Positions 5,892 to 45,776 of a stretch of DNA of 53,119 bases are shown here, one piece after another. Both the position numbers and the translations under genes were made by a program. This DNA comes from Nitrospirota bacterium (GTDB lineage: Bacteria; Nitrospirota; UBA9217), in the NCBI GenBank assembly GCA_035516965.1, contig DATIZR010000118.1, forward strand, positions 1 to 53,119, read 5' to 3'. The notes under the pieces were generated by a model that was not told the origin of the DNA, did no database searches, and saw nothing but the letters and a program-made list of their open reading frames with translations. The first letter of the stretch is position 1; every line of letters begins with the position of its first letter.

Positions 5892-6584
5892 CTACTTCGT
5901 GCTTTTCGTGTTCACCGAGACCAGTTCAACATCGAAGACCAGGATCGAGTTCGGCGGGATCCCGGGCCTGCCCTGAGGTCCGTAGGCGAGGTCCGGCGGG
6001 ATGACGAGCTGCCACTTGGCCCCCTCCTTCATCAGCTGCAAGGCCTCGGTCCAGCCCCGGATCACGCCGTTCACCGGGAACGTTGCCGCCTGCCCGCGCT
6101 TGTAGGAGCTGTCGAACTCGGTGCCGTCGATCAACTTGCCCTCATAGTTCACGGTCACCGAATCCGTGGCCTTGGGCGACTTCCCTTTCCCCCTCGTGAT
6201 GACCTTGTACTGCAGCCCGCTGGCCAGGGTCACGACGCCGTCCTTCTTTTTGTTCGCGTCGAGGAAAGCCTTGTTCTTTTCCTCGTGCCGGGACTGCATA
6301 TCCTTCTGCAGGACCGTGATGGACTCCCGCATCTCCTGCTCCGTCATGAGCTGCTTGCCGCCCGAGAGGCCATCCTTGATCCCGCGGGTGAGGCTTTCTA
6401 TATCCACATCGATGTCATTTTTCTTCAGGCTGGACCCCATGTCGATGCCGATGGCGTAGCTGGCCTTTTCCCGCTGCGTCTTCAGGACCTGCGTCTCCTG
6501 CGGCTTTGAAGCCGGTTTCTCCTCGGCCAGCACCGGACCGGCGAGCAGCATGCAGCAGCACATCATTGACAATGCCAATTTCAT
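5892..6584 (-). CDS. FKBP-type peptidyl-prolyl isomerase (FkpA/Mip-like)
   Basis: A 230-residue exported cis-trans prolyl isomerase and folding helper of the periplasm or envelope. It begins with a Sec signal peptide (about residues 1-21, ending at VLAEE), followed by the helical FKBP_N dimerisation segment (REKASYAIGIDMGSSLKK) and a long helix, then the FKBP domain (about 130-225) with VTVNYEGKLIDGTEFDSSY, VIRGWTEALQLMKEGAKWQLVIPP and LAYGPQGRPGIPPNSILVFDVEL. This is the two-part layout of FkpA and Mip. The ATG at 6584 has AAGGAG at 8-nt spacing. It is divergent from nuoA, with a candidate promoter at 6707-6735. Confidence 0.9.
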   Translation of the reverse strand: MKLALSMMCCCMLLAGPVLAEEKPASKPQETQVLKTQREKASYAIGIDMGSSLKKNDIDVDIESLTRGIKDGLSGGKQLMTEQEMRESITVLQKDMQSRHEEKNKAFLDANKKKDGVVTLASGLQYKVITRGKGKSPKATDSVTVNYEGKLIDGTEFDSSYKRGQAATFPVNGVIRGWTEALQLMKEGAKWQLVIPPDLAYGPQGRPGIPPNSILVFDVELVSVNTKSTK

Positions 6585-6706
6585 CTCGAAGCTCCTTTCG
6601 ATATTCGTCGCTCCAAACGGCGTACCCGCCGTATCGGACAACACGACCGGAGAATGTATTCGCGTCAATGGCTCGTTTCTTCAAACGAGGTGACGACGGA
6701 TGCCGT

Positions 6707-6735
6707 AACTTATCAGTGTTGCCGGCATTTGTCAA
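6707..6735 (-). promoter_or_regulatory. Candidate promoter of the FKBP gene
   Basis: On the minus strand TTGACA (6735-6730), a 17-bp spacer and TAAGTT (6712-6707) face the FKBP gene, giving a leader of about 115 nt. The -10 box is weak. Confidence 0.4.
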
Positions 6736-6763
6736 TATTGAAATCCCCCGTTCTATCCGAAGC

Positions 6764-6791
6764 TTGACTTTCCTTGCCCCTATGCTATTCT
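6764..6791 (+). promoter_or_regulatory. Promoter of the nuo operon
   Basis: TTGACT (6764-6769), 16 bp, TATTCT (6786-6791). The -10 box ends 6 nt before the nuoA ATG at 6798, and no Shine-Dalgarno sequence is present, so the mRNA may start at or next to the start codon. Confidence 0.6.
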
Positions 6792-6797
6792 TTTACC

Positions 6798-7181
6798 ATG
6801 CTCGGCCAGAACAGCGCTTCGCCCGTCCTGTGGCCGCTTGCCGTCTACTCCGGCATCGTGCTCGCGCTCGTCTTCTCCATGATAACGTTCTCCTACTTCC
6901 TGGGCGAGCGGCACCGGAGGAAGCGGGCCGACGAACCCTATGAATCGGGAGCCGCCCCGACGGGGACCGCGCGGCTGAGATTCCACATCCGGTTCTACCT
7001 CGTCGCCATGTTCTTTGTGGTCTTCGATCTCGAAGCCCTGTTCGTGTATGCCTGGTCCGTATCGCTCAGGGAGAATGGCTGGTCCGGCTACCTCGAGATG
7101 CTCGTCTTCATCGGCATCCTCGCGGCCGCGCTTGTATACCTCTGGCGGACCGGGGCGCTGGACTGGAGCACGAAGCACTGA
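6798..7181 (+). CDS. nuoA: NADH-quinone oxidoreductase subunit A
   Basis: A 127-residue membrane subunit of respiratory complex I near the quinone-binding junction. Three transmembrane helices are visible (about 12-33, 63-85 and 94-115). The loop has the family motif PYESG followed by [22 protein letters not shown], including the conserved membrane Asp-Leu-Glu. The ATG at 6798 gives a normal N-terminus; a TTG at 6774 is in frame but falls between the promoter boxes. It is the first gene of the nuo operon, 94 bp before nuoB. Confidence 0.93.
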
Positions 7182-7968: not shown

Positions 7969-9705
7969 ATGAATATCATCGAGGAATTGAAGAACACTTT
8001 CGGGGACGCTTTTGTAACGCCGCAGACAACCTCCGATGATATCCCCACCTTCTGGACCTCCAAGGACAGGCTCCGCGATATTCTGCGATATCTCAAGACA
8101 CAGGCCGGGGAGCCCTACGCGATGCTGTACGATCTCACGGCGATCGACGAGCGCGTGCGCACTCATCGTCAGGGCCAGCCCGACAGCGATTTTACGGTCG
8201 TCTATCACCTTCTTTCCTTTGGCCGGAACCAGGACATCCGGATCAAGGTCCCGCTCGCGGGCGACCGCCCCTCGATCCCGAGCATCACCCCGCTCTGGCC
8301 CGCAGCGAACTGGTACGAATGCGAGTTGTGGGACATGTTCGGAATTCACGTCGAGGGGCATCCCCATCTCCGCCGGATCCTGATGCCGCCCACCTGGAAA
8401 GGCCATCCCCTGCGCAAGGAGCACCCCGCCCGCCGGACCGAGCTGGGCCGGTTCCTGCTGCCCGAAGAACGGGAGATCCGTGAAGAGGAGGCCATGAAGT
8501 TCCGGCCCGAGGAGTGGGGGCTTTCTCCCTCCGAGGACGGAACGGATTACATGTTCCTGAACCTGGGGCCGCACCACACCGGCACCCACGGCGTGCTGCG
8601 CATCATCCTGGAGCTCGACGGCGAAGAGATCGTGAACTCCCTCCTGGACATCGGCTACCATCACCGCGGCGCCGAGAAGATGGGCGAGCGCCAGACCTGG
8701 CATACCTACATTCCCTATACCGACCGGATCGACTACCTTGCCGGCGTTCTGAACGAGTTCCCCTACGTCCTTGCCGTGGAAAGGCTTGCCAACATCGACG
8801 TCCCTGCCAGGGCGCAGGTGATCCGCGTCATGCTCGCCGAGCTCTACCGGATCGCGAGCCACCTCGTCTGGTACGGGACGTTCGCCGCGGACCTGGGGCA
8901 GCTCTCCCCGGTCTTCTTCACGTTCAACGACCGGGAGCGCTTCTATGCCATCGTCGAGGCGATATGCGGATTTCGCATGCACCCGGGATGGTTCCGCATC
9001 GGCGGCGTGGCAGCGGACCTTCCCCAGGGATGGGACAAGCTGGTCCGCGACTTTCTCGACTATATGCCCGCCCGCCTGAAGGAATACGACACGCTCGTGA
9101 TGCGGAACCGGATCATCAAGGCGCGGACCAGGGGCGTCGGCGCTCTGACCAGGGACGAAGCCATCGAATGGGGCGTGACCGGGCCGAACCTGCGCGCCTG
9201 CGGTTTCGCCTGGGACTTCCGGAAGGTCCGCCCCTATTCCGGTTACGAGCGGTTCGAGTTCGATATCCCCACGGCGGAGCACGGCGACAGCTACGACCGG
9301 GCCCTTCTGCGGGTGGAGGAGATCCGGCAGAGTCTCCGCATCGTCGAACAGTGCCTGAACAACATGCCGCCGGGGCCGTACAAGTCCGGTCATCCTCTTG
9401 CGACGCCGCCCCGGAAGGACCGGACCATGCAGGACATCGAGACCCTGATCACGCATTTCCTGAACGTGAGCTGGGGCCCCGTCATTCCGCCCGGCGAGGC
9501 GGCCTTCGGGATCGAGTCCGCAAAGGGCAACAATACCTATTATGTGGTGAGTGACGGAGACGCCTGGTCCTACCGCACGCGCATCCGCACCCCCTCGTTC
9601 CCGCACCTGCAGGTGATGCCCCGAATGACGCGCGGACGGAACATCTCCGACCTGATCGCCGTGCTCGGGAGCATCGACTTCATCATGGGAGATGTTGACC
9701 GGTGA
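7969..9705 (+). CDS. nuoCD: NADH-quinone oxidoreductase fused subunits C and D
   Basis: A 578-residue fusion, close to the length of E. coli NuoCD. Residues 1 to about 170 are the NuoC (30-kDa) domain, with [26 protein letters not shown] as its signature. Residues from about 185 on are NuoD (49-kDa), related to hydrogenase large subunits, with [29 protein letters not shown] and PYTDRIDYL near the quinone pocket. The two form part of the hydrophilic quinone-reducing module. The start follows GAAGAGG. The gene ends with the typical DFIMGDVDR tail. A 407-bp repeat-bearing gap separates it from nuoE. Confidence 0.94.
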
Positions 9706-41717: not shown

Positions 41718-42653
41718 TCACCGCAAGATACCCTTTACGATCAGATCCACTGCCTCCTCCGGCGACAGCCCGTGTGCCATGAGCGTCTCCAGCTGCCGTT
41801 TGTCCACGCTTCCGATTGCGGCTTCGTGGGTGACCTTGGCGAGCGGGTTGTTCACCTGGACGAGCGGTATCGCCTTGGCCACGGCCCGGTCCTTCACGAT
41901 CTCCATGCAGTCCACGTGCCCCCTGCAACCCGCTGCGTTGCCCTCGGTGATGCCCGTGATCTCCGCGAATGCATCGTCCTCGATCGCCACGCGGGCCTTG
42001 ATCAGCCCCCGCGCGTTCTCGCCCGCGAGCACGACCTTTTCCCTGATCTTCACCTCGTCGTCGGCATGACCAAAAACGCGGGCGACCAGTTCGGCAACCG
42101 CCTGTTCCCCTGTGCTAACCTCGTAATCGATGGCGAGCTTCCCCACCCTGCCGTTCACGAGGGAAAATTCCGTAAAATACCTGCCGCCCTTTCCCACGTT
42201 TACCGAAAGCTTCGGCAGAACCTCGATGCCGCCGAAGAGCCCGTGGTAATGCGTTTCGGAGTACCGCATCTCCGCGCCCTCGCCGATCTCGACCTTCGCG
42301 TCCATCTTGTGCACGACCTTCTCCGCCTTCGGGAATATGCAATGCGCGATGAAGGTGGCCGAGGAGTTCTTCTCGAGCTTCACATCCATCCGGATCTCCT
42401 GCCTCCCCTTCTTGTGCAGGACGCCGAAGCAGAGATGTACGGGGTTCCGGAGGTTCACCCCTTCCCGGACGATGACGCGGGCCGATATACCGTTCCGCGT
42501 TTCCCGTGCGTCCACCTCGAGCCCCTCCACCAGGCGCGAGCTCAGGATGGAGTTCCCGCTCACACTCAGATGGGCGGTCTCCTGGTCCGCGAGAACCGCG
42601 GCATCGCCGCCCGCCTCTCCCAGTGCCTGCATGAGCTGATCCAGTTCAGACAT
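41718..42653 (-). CDS. SufB/SufD-family Fe-S scaffold protein
   Basis: A 311-residue beta-helix protein of the SufB/SufD family, shorter than E. coli SufB (495) or SufD (423). Typical features are SATFIAHCIFPKAEKVVHKM, MRYSETHYHGLFGGIEVLP, GCRGHVDCMEIVKD and the closing VTHEAAIGSVDKRQLETLMAHGLSPEEAVDLIVKGIL. With SufC immediately upstream and no sufA, sufS or sufE in view, it resembles the minimal SufBC systems of anaerobes and archaea. Its start overlaps the sufC stop by eight bases. Confidence 0.82.
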   Translation of the reverse strand: MSELDQLMQALGEAGGDAAVLADQETAHLSVSGNSILSSRLVEGLEVDARETRNGISARVIVREGVNLRNPVHLCFGVLHKKGRQEIRMDVKLEKNSSATFIAHCIFPKAEKVVHKMDAKVEIGEGAEMRYSETHYHGLFGGIEVLPKLSVNVGKGGRYFTEFSLVNGRVGKLAIDYEVSTGEQAVAELVARVFGHADDEVKIREKVVLAGENARGLIKARVAIEDDAFAEITGITEGNAAGCRGHVDCMEIVKDRAVAKAIPLVQVNNPLAKVTHEAAIGSVDKRQLETLMAHGLSPEEAVDLIVKGILR

Positions 42654-43371
42654 AGTGGCACTCCACGCCGTTGCATTCCAGGCAATGGCTGGACTTGTAA
42701 TGCCCGGCTACGTTCTCAGGCTTGCCGGAGCATATGATCCTGCCGTTGCAGAGCTGCGACGCACGATCGGCGACCTTGCAGATCTCCTCTCGGTGAGTCA
42801 CGAGCAGGACCGCGGTCCCGTTCTTCCGGAACGCGTTGATCACGTTGATGACGTCCTGGATCGAAAGCATGTCGATGCCGGAGTCGGGCTCATCGAGGAT
42901 GGCGAGCCGCGGGCTGAGCGCCAGGATCGATGCCAGCTCGATCCGCTTGCGCTCTCCGCCGCTCAGGCTCTTGTCAACCATGCGGGAGAGGTACGGGGCC
43001 GGGGAGAGGCCGACCAGTTCCAGACAGGAGGCCGCGTCCCCGGCCTGCGGCCGCAGACACAGGTAATCCCTCACCGCGATGCCCTCGAACCGGACGGGCT
43101 CCTGCCATGCCATGGTGATGCCGAGCCGGGCGCGCGCATGAATCGGGAGGTCGTTGATGATCTCGCCGTTGAACCGGATCTCGCCGCTCGCCGGGCGGTA
43201 TCCCTCGCACCCCATGATCAGGCACGCGAGGGTGCTCTTGCCGGTGCCGTTGGTGCCGAGCAGGGCATGCACCTCGCCCGCATCCATGGACAGGGAAAGC
43301 CCCGAAAGGATCGGGGTCTCGGCACGAGAACCCGCAGTAAACGAGATGTTATTGATTTCAAGAAGAGGCAT
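42646..43371 (-). CDS. sufC: SufC-type ATPase of Fe-S assembly
   Basis: A 241-residue ABC-type ATPase that powers Fe-S cluster assembly on its SufB-like partner. Walker A is LLGTNGTGKST, the signature is KSLSGGERKRIELASILALSPRLAILDEPDSGID with Walker B, and the H-loop is VTHREE. The C-terminal tail SSHCLECNGVECHYV carries three cysteines and two histidines, which E. coli SufC lacks, and could hold metal or a cluster. The ATG at 43371 is used rather than a GTG seven codons upstream. An extended -10 (TGCTAAAAT, minus strand) lies about 40 bp upstream. Confidence 0.85.
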   Translation of the reverse strand: MPLLEINNISFTAGSRAETPILSGLSLSMDAGEVHALLGTNGTGKSTLACLIMGCEGYRPASGEIRFNGEIINDLPIHARARLGITMAWQEPVRFEGIAVRDYLCLRPQAGDAASCLELVGLSPAPYLSRMVDKSLSGGERKRIELASILALSPRLAILDEPDSGIDMLSIQDVINVINAFRKNGTAVLLVTHREEICKVADRASQLCNGRIICSGKPENVAGHYKSSHCLECNGVECHYV

Positions 43372-43407
43372 ACCTGTATCCAAAGGCCGCACAACTGCCC
43401 CATCCCT

Positions 43408-43442: not shown

Positions 43443-43845
43443 ATGAGCAATAAAATTCATATAATTGATACGAAACAATGCCGAATTGACATCGTTCCCC
43501 GTAAGCTTCCCGGTAAGCATGGGGCTTTCCGCATGAATGACTGCGTGAACATCGGGAGCATTTACGTCGAGCACGGCATGCCTGATGAAGGCATGCGGGA
43601 GTTCATGTTCGTCCCGCAACTCAGGAGCCTCGACGACATCGACACTGCCAGCCTCTTCGTCAACAGGGGGTTCTGTTATCTTAGAAAGTGCCTTCCGGAC
43701 CGGGCGATCGAGTTCTACTCTGAGACGGTCCCGGTGAACCCGAATGACGGATGGTCTATGACTACCTGGCCAGGGCATGGGGATGAGGGACAAGGCAGCG
43801 GAGTTCCTGGGCAAGGCCCACGGCCTGAACCCTGACAAGTATTGA
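43443..43845 (+). pseudogene. Tetratricopeptide-like protein, frameshifted
   Basis: The first frame (from ATG 43443) contains a TPR-like stretch, FVNRGFCYLRKCLPDRAIEF then YSETVPVNPNDG. It then shifts: VYDYLARAWG and finally MRDKAAEFLGKAHGLNPDKY, ending at TGA 43845, are read in other frames. Together they make tandem TPR-like units, so the gene appears disrupted by two small indels. An assembly error remains possible. Confidence 0.5.
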
Positions 43846-43877: not shown

Positions 43878-43910
43878 AAAAAAAACCGCTGTCTCAGTGA
43901 GACAGCGGTT
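43878..43910 (-). terminator. Rho-independent terminator of the hesB-like gene
   Basis: A perfect 12-bp stem (AACCGCTGTCTC with its complement) and 3-base loop, followed on the minus strand by eight T residues. It lies 30 bp beyond the stop of the hesB-like gene. Confidence 0.85.
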
Positions 43911-43939: not shown

Positions 43940-44242
43940 TCAGCAGCTGCTGCAAGAAGAGCCGCAGCTTGACTGCATCCCCGAAAGGATAAAACCCTGT
44001 TTATCGTTGAAATCGATGTTCGTGTTCTCAAGCATTATGTTGGCGCGCTCCTCAACGAACACCCTGAGTCCGCTCAATTCGAGCGTCGTATCGCCCCGCA
44101 GGGCTTCCTTGGCTATGTCCATAGCCAGTGACGGGCTTCAGCCGCCCGGCACGGTGAATATGCGCACCCCGTCGCCGGCCTTGCCCTGTGCCACAACAAT
44201 TTCCTTGAACTTCGTGACTGCATTGTCTGTCAGACTTACCAT
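43940..44242 (-). CDS. HesB/IscA-like protein, predicted selenoprotein (UGA at codon 35)
   Basis: A 100-residue A-type Fe-S carrier-like protein if TGA at 44140-44138 is read as selenocysteine. Before it stand MVSLTDNAVTKFKEIVVAQG and GVRIFTVPGG; after it SPSLAMDIAKEAL and LRVFVEERANIMLENTNIDF. The TGA occupies the position of the conserved first Cys in the family's GGC motif, and the C-terminal cysteines are present and expanded (SCGSSCSSC). A GGAGG ribosome-binding site precedes ATG 44242, and a terminator follows the true stop. HesB-like selenoproteins are a known bacterial family. The alternative is a pseudogene with a nonsense mutation, but both sides of the TGA remain well conserved. 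Confidence 0.75.
44111..44126 (-). promoter_or_regulatory. SECIS-like hairpin
   Basis: In the mRNA, GGCUAU-GGAC-AUAGCC forms a perfect 6-bp stem with a G-starting tetraloop. It begins 12 nt after the UGA, placing the loop about 18 nt downstream. This fits the bacterial SECIS rule: loop 16-37 nt from UGA, with G in the first two loop positions. Confidence 0.65.
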
Positions 44243-44344
44243 ACTTCCTCCCGATGAATTTCAATTCCTTCTAAAATTGTTCCGTATAGTACCAATATGT
44301 TCTCATTCCTGCAACTGTTTTTTTCTTCGTTCTGAGCTCCCCGC

Positions 44345-44779
44345 CTATACTTTTTTTCCGCCGCCGGACGGGACATCCTTGAGAAAAAGCTGTATTTTCC
44401 CCCTGATCTCGTCCCTCGCTCGCCTGAAATCATTCATGATCATTGCATCGGTGCCCCGCGCCAGGATCGGGTCCTTGATGGGCCAGTGAAGCCGTTTGAG
44501 AGAGGGAGGCGTCCAGGGGCAGGCCTCGGCGGCGTTGTCGCAAAGCGTGATGACGACATCCATGCTGCGCATGAGCACTGCGTCGATCTCCTTGGATGTC
44601 TGGCCGGAGATATCGATGCCGGCTTCCTTCATGACCGCCATGGCCCGGGCGTTCACTCCCGCGGCCATGAGTCCGGCGCTGAAGGCTTCGACCCTGCCTT
44701 TGCCGAGCTCGCGGGCGAACCCTTCCGCCATCTGGGAGCGGCAGGAATTGCCGGTGCACAGGAACATCACTTTCATCAT
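44345..44779 (-). CDS. arsC: Arsenate reductase, thioredoxin-coupled type
   Basis: A 144-residue low-molecular-weight phosphatase fold enzyme that reduces arsenate to arsenite. The P-loop is CTGNSCRS (Cys8 to Cys13), the redox pair is Cys80 and Cys87 in LCDNAAEACPW, and the Asp of the DP motif is in WPIKDP (about 103). These three features distinguish ArsC from ordinary LMW phosphatases. The ATG is four bases after the apbE stop, so the two are translated together. No arsR or efflux gene is nearby. Confidence 0.88.
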   Translation of the reverse strand: MMKVMFLCTGNSCRSQMAEGFARELGKGRVEAFSAGLMAAGVNARAMAVMKEAGIDISGQTSKEIDAVLMRSMDVVITLCDNAAEACPWTPPSLKRLHWPIKDPILARGTDAMIMNDFRRARDEIRGKIQLFLKDVPSGGGKKV

Positions 44780-44783
44780 ACGT

Positions 44784-45776
44784 TCACTTGCGGGCACCCG
44801 CCTCCATCGTCTTGATCCCGTCGGTCATGAAGGTCCGGCCTCCCTCATCCACGATGATCGCCTCGGCCCCCGCCTGTTTCACGATCTTCATGCCCTCTTC
44901 CGGACCCAGGATGAAGGGCGCCTTGGCAAGCGGATCGATCAGCGAGCCCTGGTCCCCGATCAGCGTGGCCGAGATGACGCCGGTAGACGGCTTGCCGGTC
45001 CTGGGGTCGATGATATGATGGTACCGCTTGTTCCCCCTGATGACGAAGCGTTCGTAATCGCCGGACGTGGTGATATATTTGTCGCTCAGCCCCAGCACGA
45101 TCAGCGTCTTGTCCCGCTCTCGGGGATGCTGGACGCCGATCCGCCACGGTGTTCCGTCCTCCCGGCGTCCCATCACCCAGATGTCCCCCGCCAGCGCGAT
45201 CACGGCATTGTCGATGCCGTGTGCCCTGAGCAGGTCCCTGACCCGGTCGGCGATGTAACCCTTCATGCCCCCCAGGTCCATGATCATGCCCGGTCTCTTC
45301 AGGAAGATGGTCGAGGCCTTGCGGTCGACGACGATGTTCCGGTAGTTCACAAGGGGCTTCACCCTGGCGATCTCCGAGTCGGTCGGGACCGTCCCCTCCT
45401 TGAGCCTCATCTGCCACAGCACCACGAGCGGGCCGATCGTGATGTCAAAAACGCCGCCCGACAGCTCCGAGACGCGGCGCGCGGATTCTACCGCATCGAT
45501 CATCTCGGGCGATACCACGACCGGGTGGCGGCCGGCGGCCTCGTTTACCTTCGATACCTCGCTGTCGATCTTGTAGAGCGACATCATCCGGTCGAAGCGC
45601 CGGACCTCGTCCATGGCGGCATCGATGGCGGCCCCGCCCCCCGCCCTGCTCTTCGCGACGACCGTGATGGTGACATCCGTGCCCATGATGGGCTCGGTCT
45701 TCTGGACCGTCCTGACACGGCTGCATCCCGCGACGGCAAGCGCGAGCAGCATGGCGAGGAGTATCGTCTGTTTCAT
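44784..45776 (-). CDS. apbE: FAD:protein FMN transferase (ApbE), lipoprotein
   Basis: A 330-residue enzyme that attaches FMN covalently to Thr of target flavoproteins (RnfG/NqrC-type). It has a lipoprotein signal with lipobox LAVAGC (lipid Cys18), so it is anchored on the periplasmic side. The family motifs are EPIMGTDVTITV, DLGGMKGYIADRV, ALAGDIWVMG and HHIIDPRTGKPSTG, with a metal-site Asp/Thr region near SLIDPLAKAPFILG. The ATG at 45776 has GGGGG upstream. No rnf or nqr target gene is present in the window. Confidence 0.9.
   Translation of the reverse strand: MKQTILLAMLLALAVAGCSRVRTVQKTEPIMGTDVTITVVAKSRAGGGAAIDAAMDEVRRFDRMMSLYKIDSEVSKVNEAAGRHPVVVSPEMIDAVESARRVSELSGGVFDITIGPLVVLWQMRLKEGTVPTDSEIARVKPLVNYRNIVVDRKASTIFLKRPGMIMDLGGMKGYIADRVRDLLRAHGIDNAVIALAGDIWVMGRREDGTPWRIGVQHPRERDKTLIVLGLSDKYITTSGDYERFVIRGNKRYHHIIDPRTGKPSTGVISATLIGDQGSLIDPLAKAPFILGPEEGMKIVKQAGAEAIIVDEGGRTFMTDGIKTMEAGARK

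Follow-up and report, generated by a model that had tools for sequence, protein, structure and literature searches.

A predicted selenocysteine-containing A-type carrier-like protein encoded beside arsenic resistance genes in Nitrospirota

HesB-like selenoproteins belong to the A-type carrier superfamily and are covered by the models TIGR01911 (HesB_rel_seleno) and NF038090 (IscA_HesB_Se). They carry selenocysteine (Sec) in the conserved HesB Cys motif, the bacterial members feature a bacterial SECIS, and Sec-to-Cys conversions are known among them (PMC1794560, Genome Biol 2006 7:R94). Their published motif is UxGP; lists of selenoproteins have included them from the 2000s on, and their functions are still described as largely uncharacterised in a review of 2026 (PMC13188914). 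Sec is also used or implicated in the handling of arsenic and mercury, namely in SaoB/SaoC, UXX-star, arsenite methyltransferase selenoproteins, and Sec arsenate reductases (PMC13188914)—all of them families unrelated to the protein described here and none of them an A-type carrier. On the side of Fe–S cluster assembly, the archaeal SmsB2C2 complex was shown to assemble and transfer clusters (PMC12442378). A report of an IscA/HesB selenoprotein linked to ars operons was not found in the open-access literature.

The window—the whole stretch of 53,119 nucleotides analysed here—belongs to a Nitrospirota genome (G000) of 3.8 Mb that is 97.7% complete and has Nitrospirae bacterium GWC2_57_9 among its relatives. 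On its minus strand, the CDS 43940..44242 encodes a 100-aa A-type carrier-like protein with an IscA/HesB fold, as judged by translation, Pfam, and an AlphaFold model. The ORF, read from 44242 to 43940, translates as MVSLTDNAVTKFKEIVVAQGKAGDGVRIFTVPGG-U-SPSLAMDIAKEALRGDTTLELSGLRVFVEERANIMLENTNIDFNDKQGFILSGMQSSCGSSCSSC; it contains a single in-frame TGA at 44140-44138 (residue 35) and ends with the stop TGA at 43942-43940. A ribosome-binding site GGGAGG lies ahead of it (44247..44252, minus strand), of which GGAGG is retained among orthologues, and an intrinsic terminator-like hairpin with a T run follows the gene (43884..43910, minus strand). An earlier, sequence-only reading of this DNA had pointed out the in-frame TGA with its intact flanking frame, the good ribosome-binding site, the terminator, and the unusual SCGSSCSSC tail; re-translation returned the TGA at the same coordinates, and the other elements are present as it described them. 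From the sequence comparisons set out below, the protein is very probably made with Sec at UGA35.

The profile PF01521 (Fe-S_biosyn) matches the protein with 32 bits against a gathering score of 26.3. The AlphaFold model has a pLDDT of 86 and finds its best solved-structure matches in E. coli IscA (1r94, 1s98) and SufA (2d2a), so that profile and modelled fold both place the protein with the A-type carriers. Fold, length, and the position of the first ligand are like those of canonical IscA, SufA, and ErpA. However, these proteins have Cys and the motif GGCCGP where the window protein has Sec and one residue fewer, and their three-Cys site C...CGC is absent: Sec takes the place of the first Cys, and the variable tail reads CGSSCSSC, SCCG, or CSC, with no fixed CGC. 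The tail of the window protein (43943..43966, minus strand) carries the cluster CGSSCSSC with Cys93, Cys97, and Cys100, which may partner Sec35 as ligands; every Sec homologue has two or more tail Cys.

The comparison set contains 14 genomes of the window's family, which are every genome of its class in the set. An orthologue is present in 12 of them—the two genomes without one are 74% complete—and the UGA form occurs at 15 further loci of other Nitrospirota families (f5, f13, f15, f23, f26, and f27), which gives 27 sequences from independent assemblies with UGA at the same codon. A strict peptide-pattern scan of genome contigs returned Nitrospirota records and a single record without NCBI classification (BMS3Bbin05, L050); the protein of this record and that of the Nitrospirota locus L058 are identical. 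A search of plasmids returned a single weak match, an ordinary IscA.

The sequence-only reading had named the protein a HesB/IscA-like selenoprotein. The IscA/HesB fold and the recoding of UGA hold, but the protein lies outside the two existing models and its motif is shorter. TIGR01911 gives no match to the window protein at E ≤ 1 and 17–32 bits to the other Sec members (cut-off 66.35), and no protein over its cut-off was found in 396 Nitrospirota genomes. NF038090 gives 37.2 bits to the window protein and 35–46 bits to the other Sec members (cut-off 85). The curated score of a selenoprotein model is reached by none of the seven Sec members scanned, and automatic annotation therefore probably truncates the gene at the UGA. 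As judged by these scores, which stay below both cut-offs, the window protein belongs to a separate branch of the A-type superfamily, apart from the existing HesB-like selenoprotein models. Superfamily, Sec at the conserved Cys motif, the bacterial SECIS, and Sec-to-Cys conversion are common to both, whereas UxGP is replaced in the window branch by GGU-x-P (GGU-[S/G/R]-P), which is one residue fewer. The Sec forms, GGU-GPSLAM, are likewise one residue shorter than the related Cys forms, GGCCGPSLAM. In a maximum-likelihood tree the Sec forms cluster, with 4 label changes compared with 16 in shuffles; three Cys members are nested in the Sec branch, one of which, L120_Cys2, sits on a long branch with unsure placement. 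In L117 and L088, the Cys paralogue next to the Sec gene retains a SECIS-like stem, GGCTAT GGAT ATAGTC, likely left over from an ancestor with Sec. Another, more divergent Sec branch with the motif SGGURP and 37–39% identity occurs at L123:6009-6308 and L124:7662-7946; it keeps the SECIS and has no ars genes nearby.

The immediate upstream neighbour of the window gene is arsC (44345..44785, minus strand), a thioredoxin-type (pI258-like) arsenate reductase that scores 160.5 bits with TIGR02691, slightly below the cut-off of 174.3. In 10 class genomes, and at five loci of families f13 and f23, arsC neighbours the Sec gene; the layout is arsC-iscA-smsC-smsB in the class and iscA-arsC in the two families. 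Elsewhere the neighbours are ACR3 (263 bits), ArsD (127 bits, above cut-off), a two-domain ArsA, and ArsR, and a SaoE/ArsP-like permease lies near the Sec gene in three genomes of the class. Linkage was counted as arsC, acr3, arsA, arsD, or arsR in the available flanks, which are mostly ≤6–7 kb and differ in length. By this count, at least one ars gene lies near 19 of the 27 Sec loci (11/12 in the class, 8/15 outside it) compared with 0/10 ordinary IscA loci, and Fisher tests give p = 1.3e-4 for all loci and 0.006 outside the class—values that are indicative only, because the rows are related and the flank lengths differ. The link to arsenic, which had been suggested on the basis of one arsC neighbour, is thus much stronger than that neighbour alone and recurs in several layouts. 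The ordinary IscA paralogue (L005/L129), which served as control, has its own gene without ars neighbours beside hemD/cobA-like and hemB-like genes; at L129:4315-7572 (G000:C40) it lies, by sequence reading, between uroporphyrinogen-III methyltransferase/synthase-like and hemB-like genes and not beside Fe–S assembly genes.

Downstream of the window gene lie, on the same strand, a smsC/sufC-like ATPase gene (42646..43392; SufC, 162 bits) and a smsB/sufB-like scaffold gene (41718..42653), and this smsC-smsB pair follows the Sec gene in nine of the 10 class genomes with a long enough contig. A SUF-like minimal system (SMS) would have adjacent smsC and smsB and no sufD. In G000 a sufC-like and a sufB-like gene are adjacent, and a PF01458 search finds the SmsB-like protein as its single match and hence as the only SUFBD-core protein; its score with SmsB NF052511, however, is just 73 bits compared with a cut-off of 650, far below it. 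In the window, the terminator-like site stands after the selenoprotein gene and ahead of smsC, which makes a joint transcript with smsCB doubtful. The same interval holds a 130-aa ORF on the opposite strand (43443-43835, plus strand) with no NCBIfam match. Through the window branch, HesB-like selenoproteins gain a genomic context that recurs, namely arsenic resistance, to which one class adds the only detected SUF-type scaffold; what Sec does at the site of an A-type carrier thereby becomes testable.

We propose with good confidence that the product of the gene is an A-type carrier-like protein with selenocysteine that acts within an arsenic-response module, where it would serve Fe–S assembly or the handling of As(III) while the cell is under arsenic stress. 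Recoding, SECIS, fold, and ars linkage are well supported by comparative evidence; from these we infer the binding of Fe–S or As(III) by Sec35 and the tail Cys as well as a benefit of Sec. SelB and tRNA-Sec would decode UGA35 as Sec because the SECIS with its GGAC loop follows. In the IscA/SufA-like fold, Sec35 would replace the first cluster-binding Cys, and the Cys-rich tail would provide its partner ligands. Most likely, an Fe–S cluster would be bound and handed on, in the window's class beside the SmsBC scaffold, and Sec may keep the cluster site working or recovering while arsenite competes for thiols.

We favour this reading of an Fe–S carrier that Sec makes more robust, or better adjusted, to arsenic stress; its main rival is an As(III) chaperone. 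According to this alternative, which we regard as possible if tentative, the protein is no longer an Fe–S carrier; Sec35 and two tail Cys would together bind As(III) in a three-coordinate site, and the protein would serve to chaperone or buffer arsenite alongside ArsD/ArsA or the ACR3 pump. The best hint comes from L114 (usp-arsD-iscA-arsA), where arsD and arsA directly flank the Sec gene. In L117 and L120, too, it lies between the ArsD and ArsA genes, the layout in L120 being acr3-usp-arsD-iscA(Cys)-iscA(Sec)-arsA. The three conserved chalcogen residues and the deviation of the tail from CGC point the same way. The ArsD metallochaperone, which neighbours the Sec gene in these three loci, is likewise a small ars-operon protein with clustered chalcogen ligands, but it belongs to a different family, and the likeness is a functional analogy only. 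On the other hand, the steady neighbours in the window's class are smsC-smsB and not arsD/arsA, and the modelled fold is that of Fe–S carriers. More specifically, the protein could be a new ars-operon selenoprotein in which an IscA fold has turned into a selenol/thiol arsenite-binding chaperone (Sec35 and two tail Cys), feeding ArsA or shielding the single SUF-type scaffold of the cell against As(III); this version we consider somewhat doubtful. In L117, a Cys copy (6515-6805, minus strand) and the Sec copy (8498-8779, minus strand) lie 2 kb apart in one arsenic operon, with the Cys copy directly before arsA.

The favoured carrier role under arsenic stress also has to be weighed against an Fe–S carrier selenoprotein whose proximity to ars genes is incidental. 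Eight of the 27 Sec loci have no ars gene in their available flanks, and L112 and L128 combine smsC/smsB-type neighbours with the lack of an ars gene. Yet ars neighbours occur in several layouts and several families and at none of the 10 control loci, which makes mere coincidence improbable.

The recoding itself is carried by the hairpin and the conservation around the UGA. The predicted SECIS is the stem-loop GGCTAT GGAC ATAGCC (44111..44126, minus strand), identified by its pairing, codon invariance, and single occurrence per genome. Its 6-bp stem, its G-first tetraloop, and its location where bacterial SECIS elements lie had been recognised in the sequence-only reading, which gave a distance of 12 nt from the UGA where 11 nt are found. 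The spacing from UGA to apical loop is 17 nt, and with a stem of 6–7 bp the fold has −7.5 to −9.8 kcal/mol. Spacing, G-first loop, and stability lie within the published constraints on bacterial SECIS elements (bSECIS) that were used as yardstick (PMC13188914). Taken from the single window sequence, the hairpin is weak evidence, because an equally stable one follows 3.4% of all TGAs in the window and its z-score is −1.3; it becomes compelling because UGA and stem are conserved, with all 27 sequences forming the stem. All 156 pair cells (26 distinct sequences) are paired, compared with 17–35% when the frame of pairing is slid. Codons 40, 42, and 44 in the stem show zero synonymous change among 12 orthologues, whereas the mean codon identity of other invariant residues is 56% (permutation p = 0.009 for the SECIS codons). 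Each of the 12 family genomes with the gene has exactly one such site, and the reversed control has none. One stem pair is doubly changed from G-C to A-U in L058, L067, and L070 together with the replacements A40T and A44V, which reads in the alignment as a compensatory change at the cost of two amino-acid replacements. An Rfam search of the window gave no match.

The in-frame UGA for the predicted Sec35 (44138..44140, minus strand) is kept at the same codon in 12/12 family orthologues, none of which has another in-frame stop. The homologues L069, L117, L071, and L072 have Cys at position 35; the UGA thus aligns with Cys in homologues and is kept in relatives, as expected of a bacterial selenoprotein gene. 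This bears out the suggestion that the UGA replaces the first conserved Cys of A-type carriers, and the nonsense decay in close relatives that would have spoken against it is absent, with UGA or Cys conserved instead. An ATG-started 60-aa ORF follows the UGA, and its Met41 (ATG 44122) is invariant, so that termination at UGA35 and a restart at this Met could be imagined to yield two proteins. This is very improbable: pN/pS is 0.20 upstream of the UGA, 0.30 downstream, and falls to 0.04 over the four codons that separate the UGA from the stem, so that these codons are selected for their amino acids and their third positions vary freely. Purifying selection on either side, together with the low value in between, speaks for translation that runs on through the UGA and against a restart. 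Moreover, no Shine-Dalgarno sequence precedes ATG 44122, and the Cys homologues are single proteins. A pseudogene, a sequencing error, or a code in which UGA is always sense—suggested by nothing but a UGA inside a coding frame—has a negligible chance, given that 27 sequences of independent assemblies share the UGA, that there is no further in-frame stop and purifying selection throughout, and that UGA terminates the same gene in 7/12 orthologues and hence also serves as stop. Split gene, pseudogene, and alternative code were accordingly rejected.

The genome carries the machinery that the sequence-only reading had asked for, with selA, selB, tRNA-Sec, and selD all present. selA and selB each occur twice, and the tRNA-Sec with anticodon UCA lies on the same contig as one selA-selB pair (C42). 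The second pair (L001, L029) lies on a 4.9-kb contig (C71) and is a genuine duplicate or else a contaminant from binning. The selD gene has an in-frame UGA of its own in the motif CAGUASK, the usual Sec site of SelD. At this locus (L032, G000:C86:4133-5059) the UGA is followed by the hairpin GUCCCAG-GUC-CUGGGAC, and by its sequence SelD is a further predicted selenoprotein of this genome, independent of the window protein.
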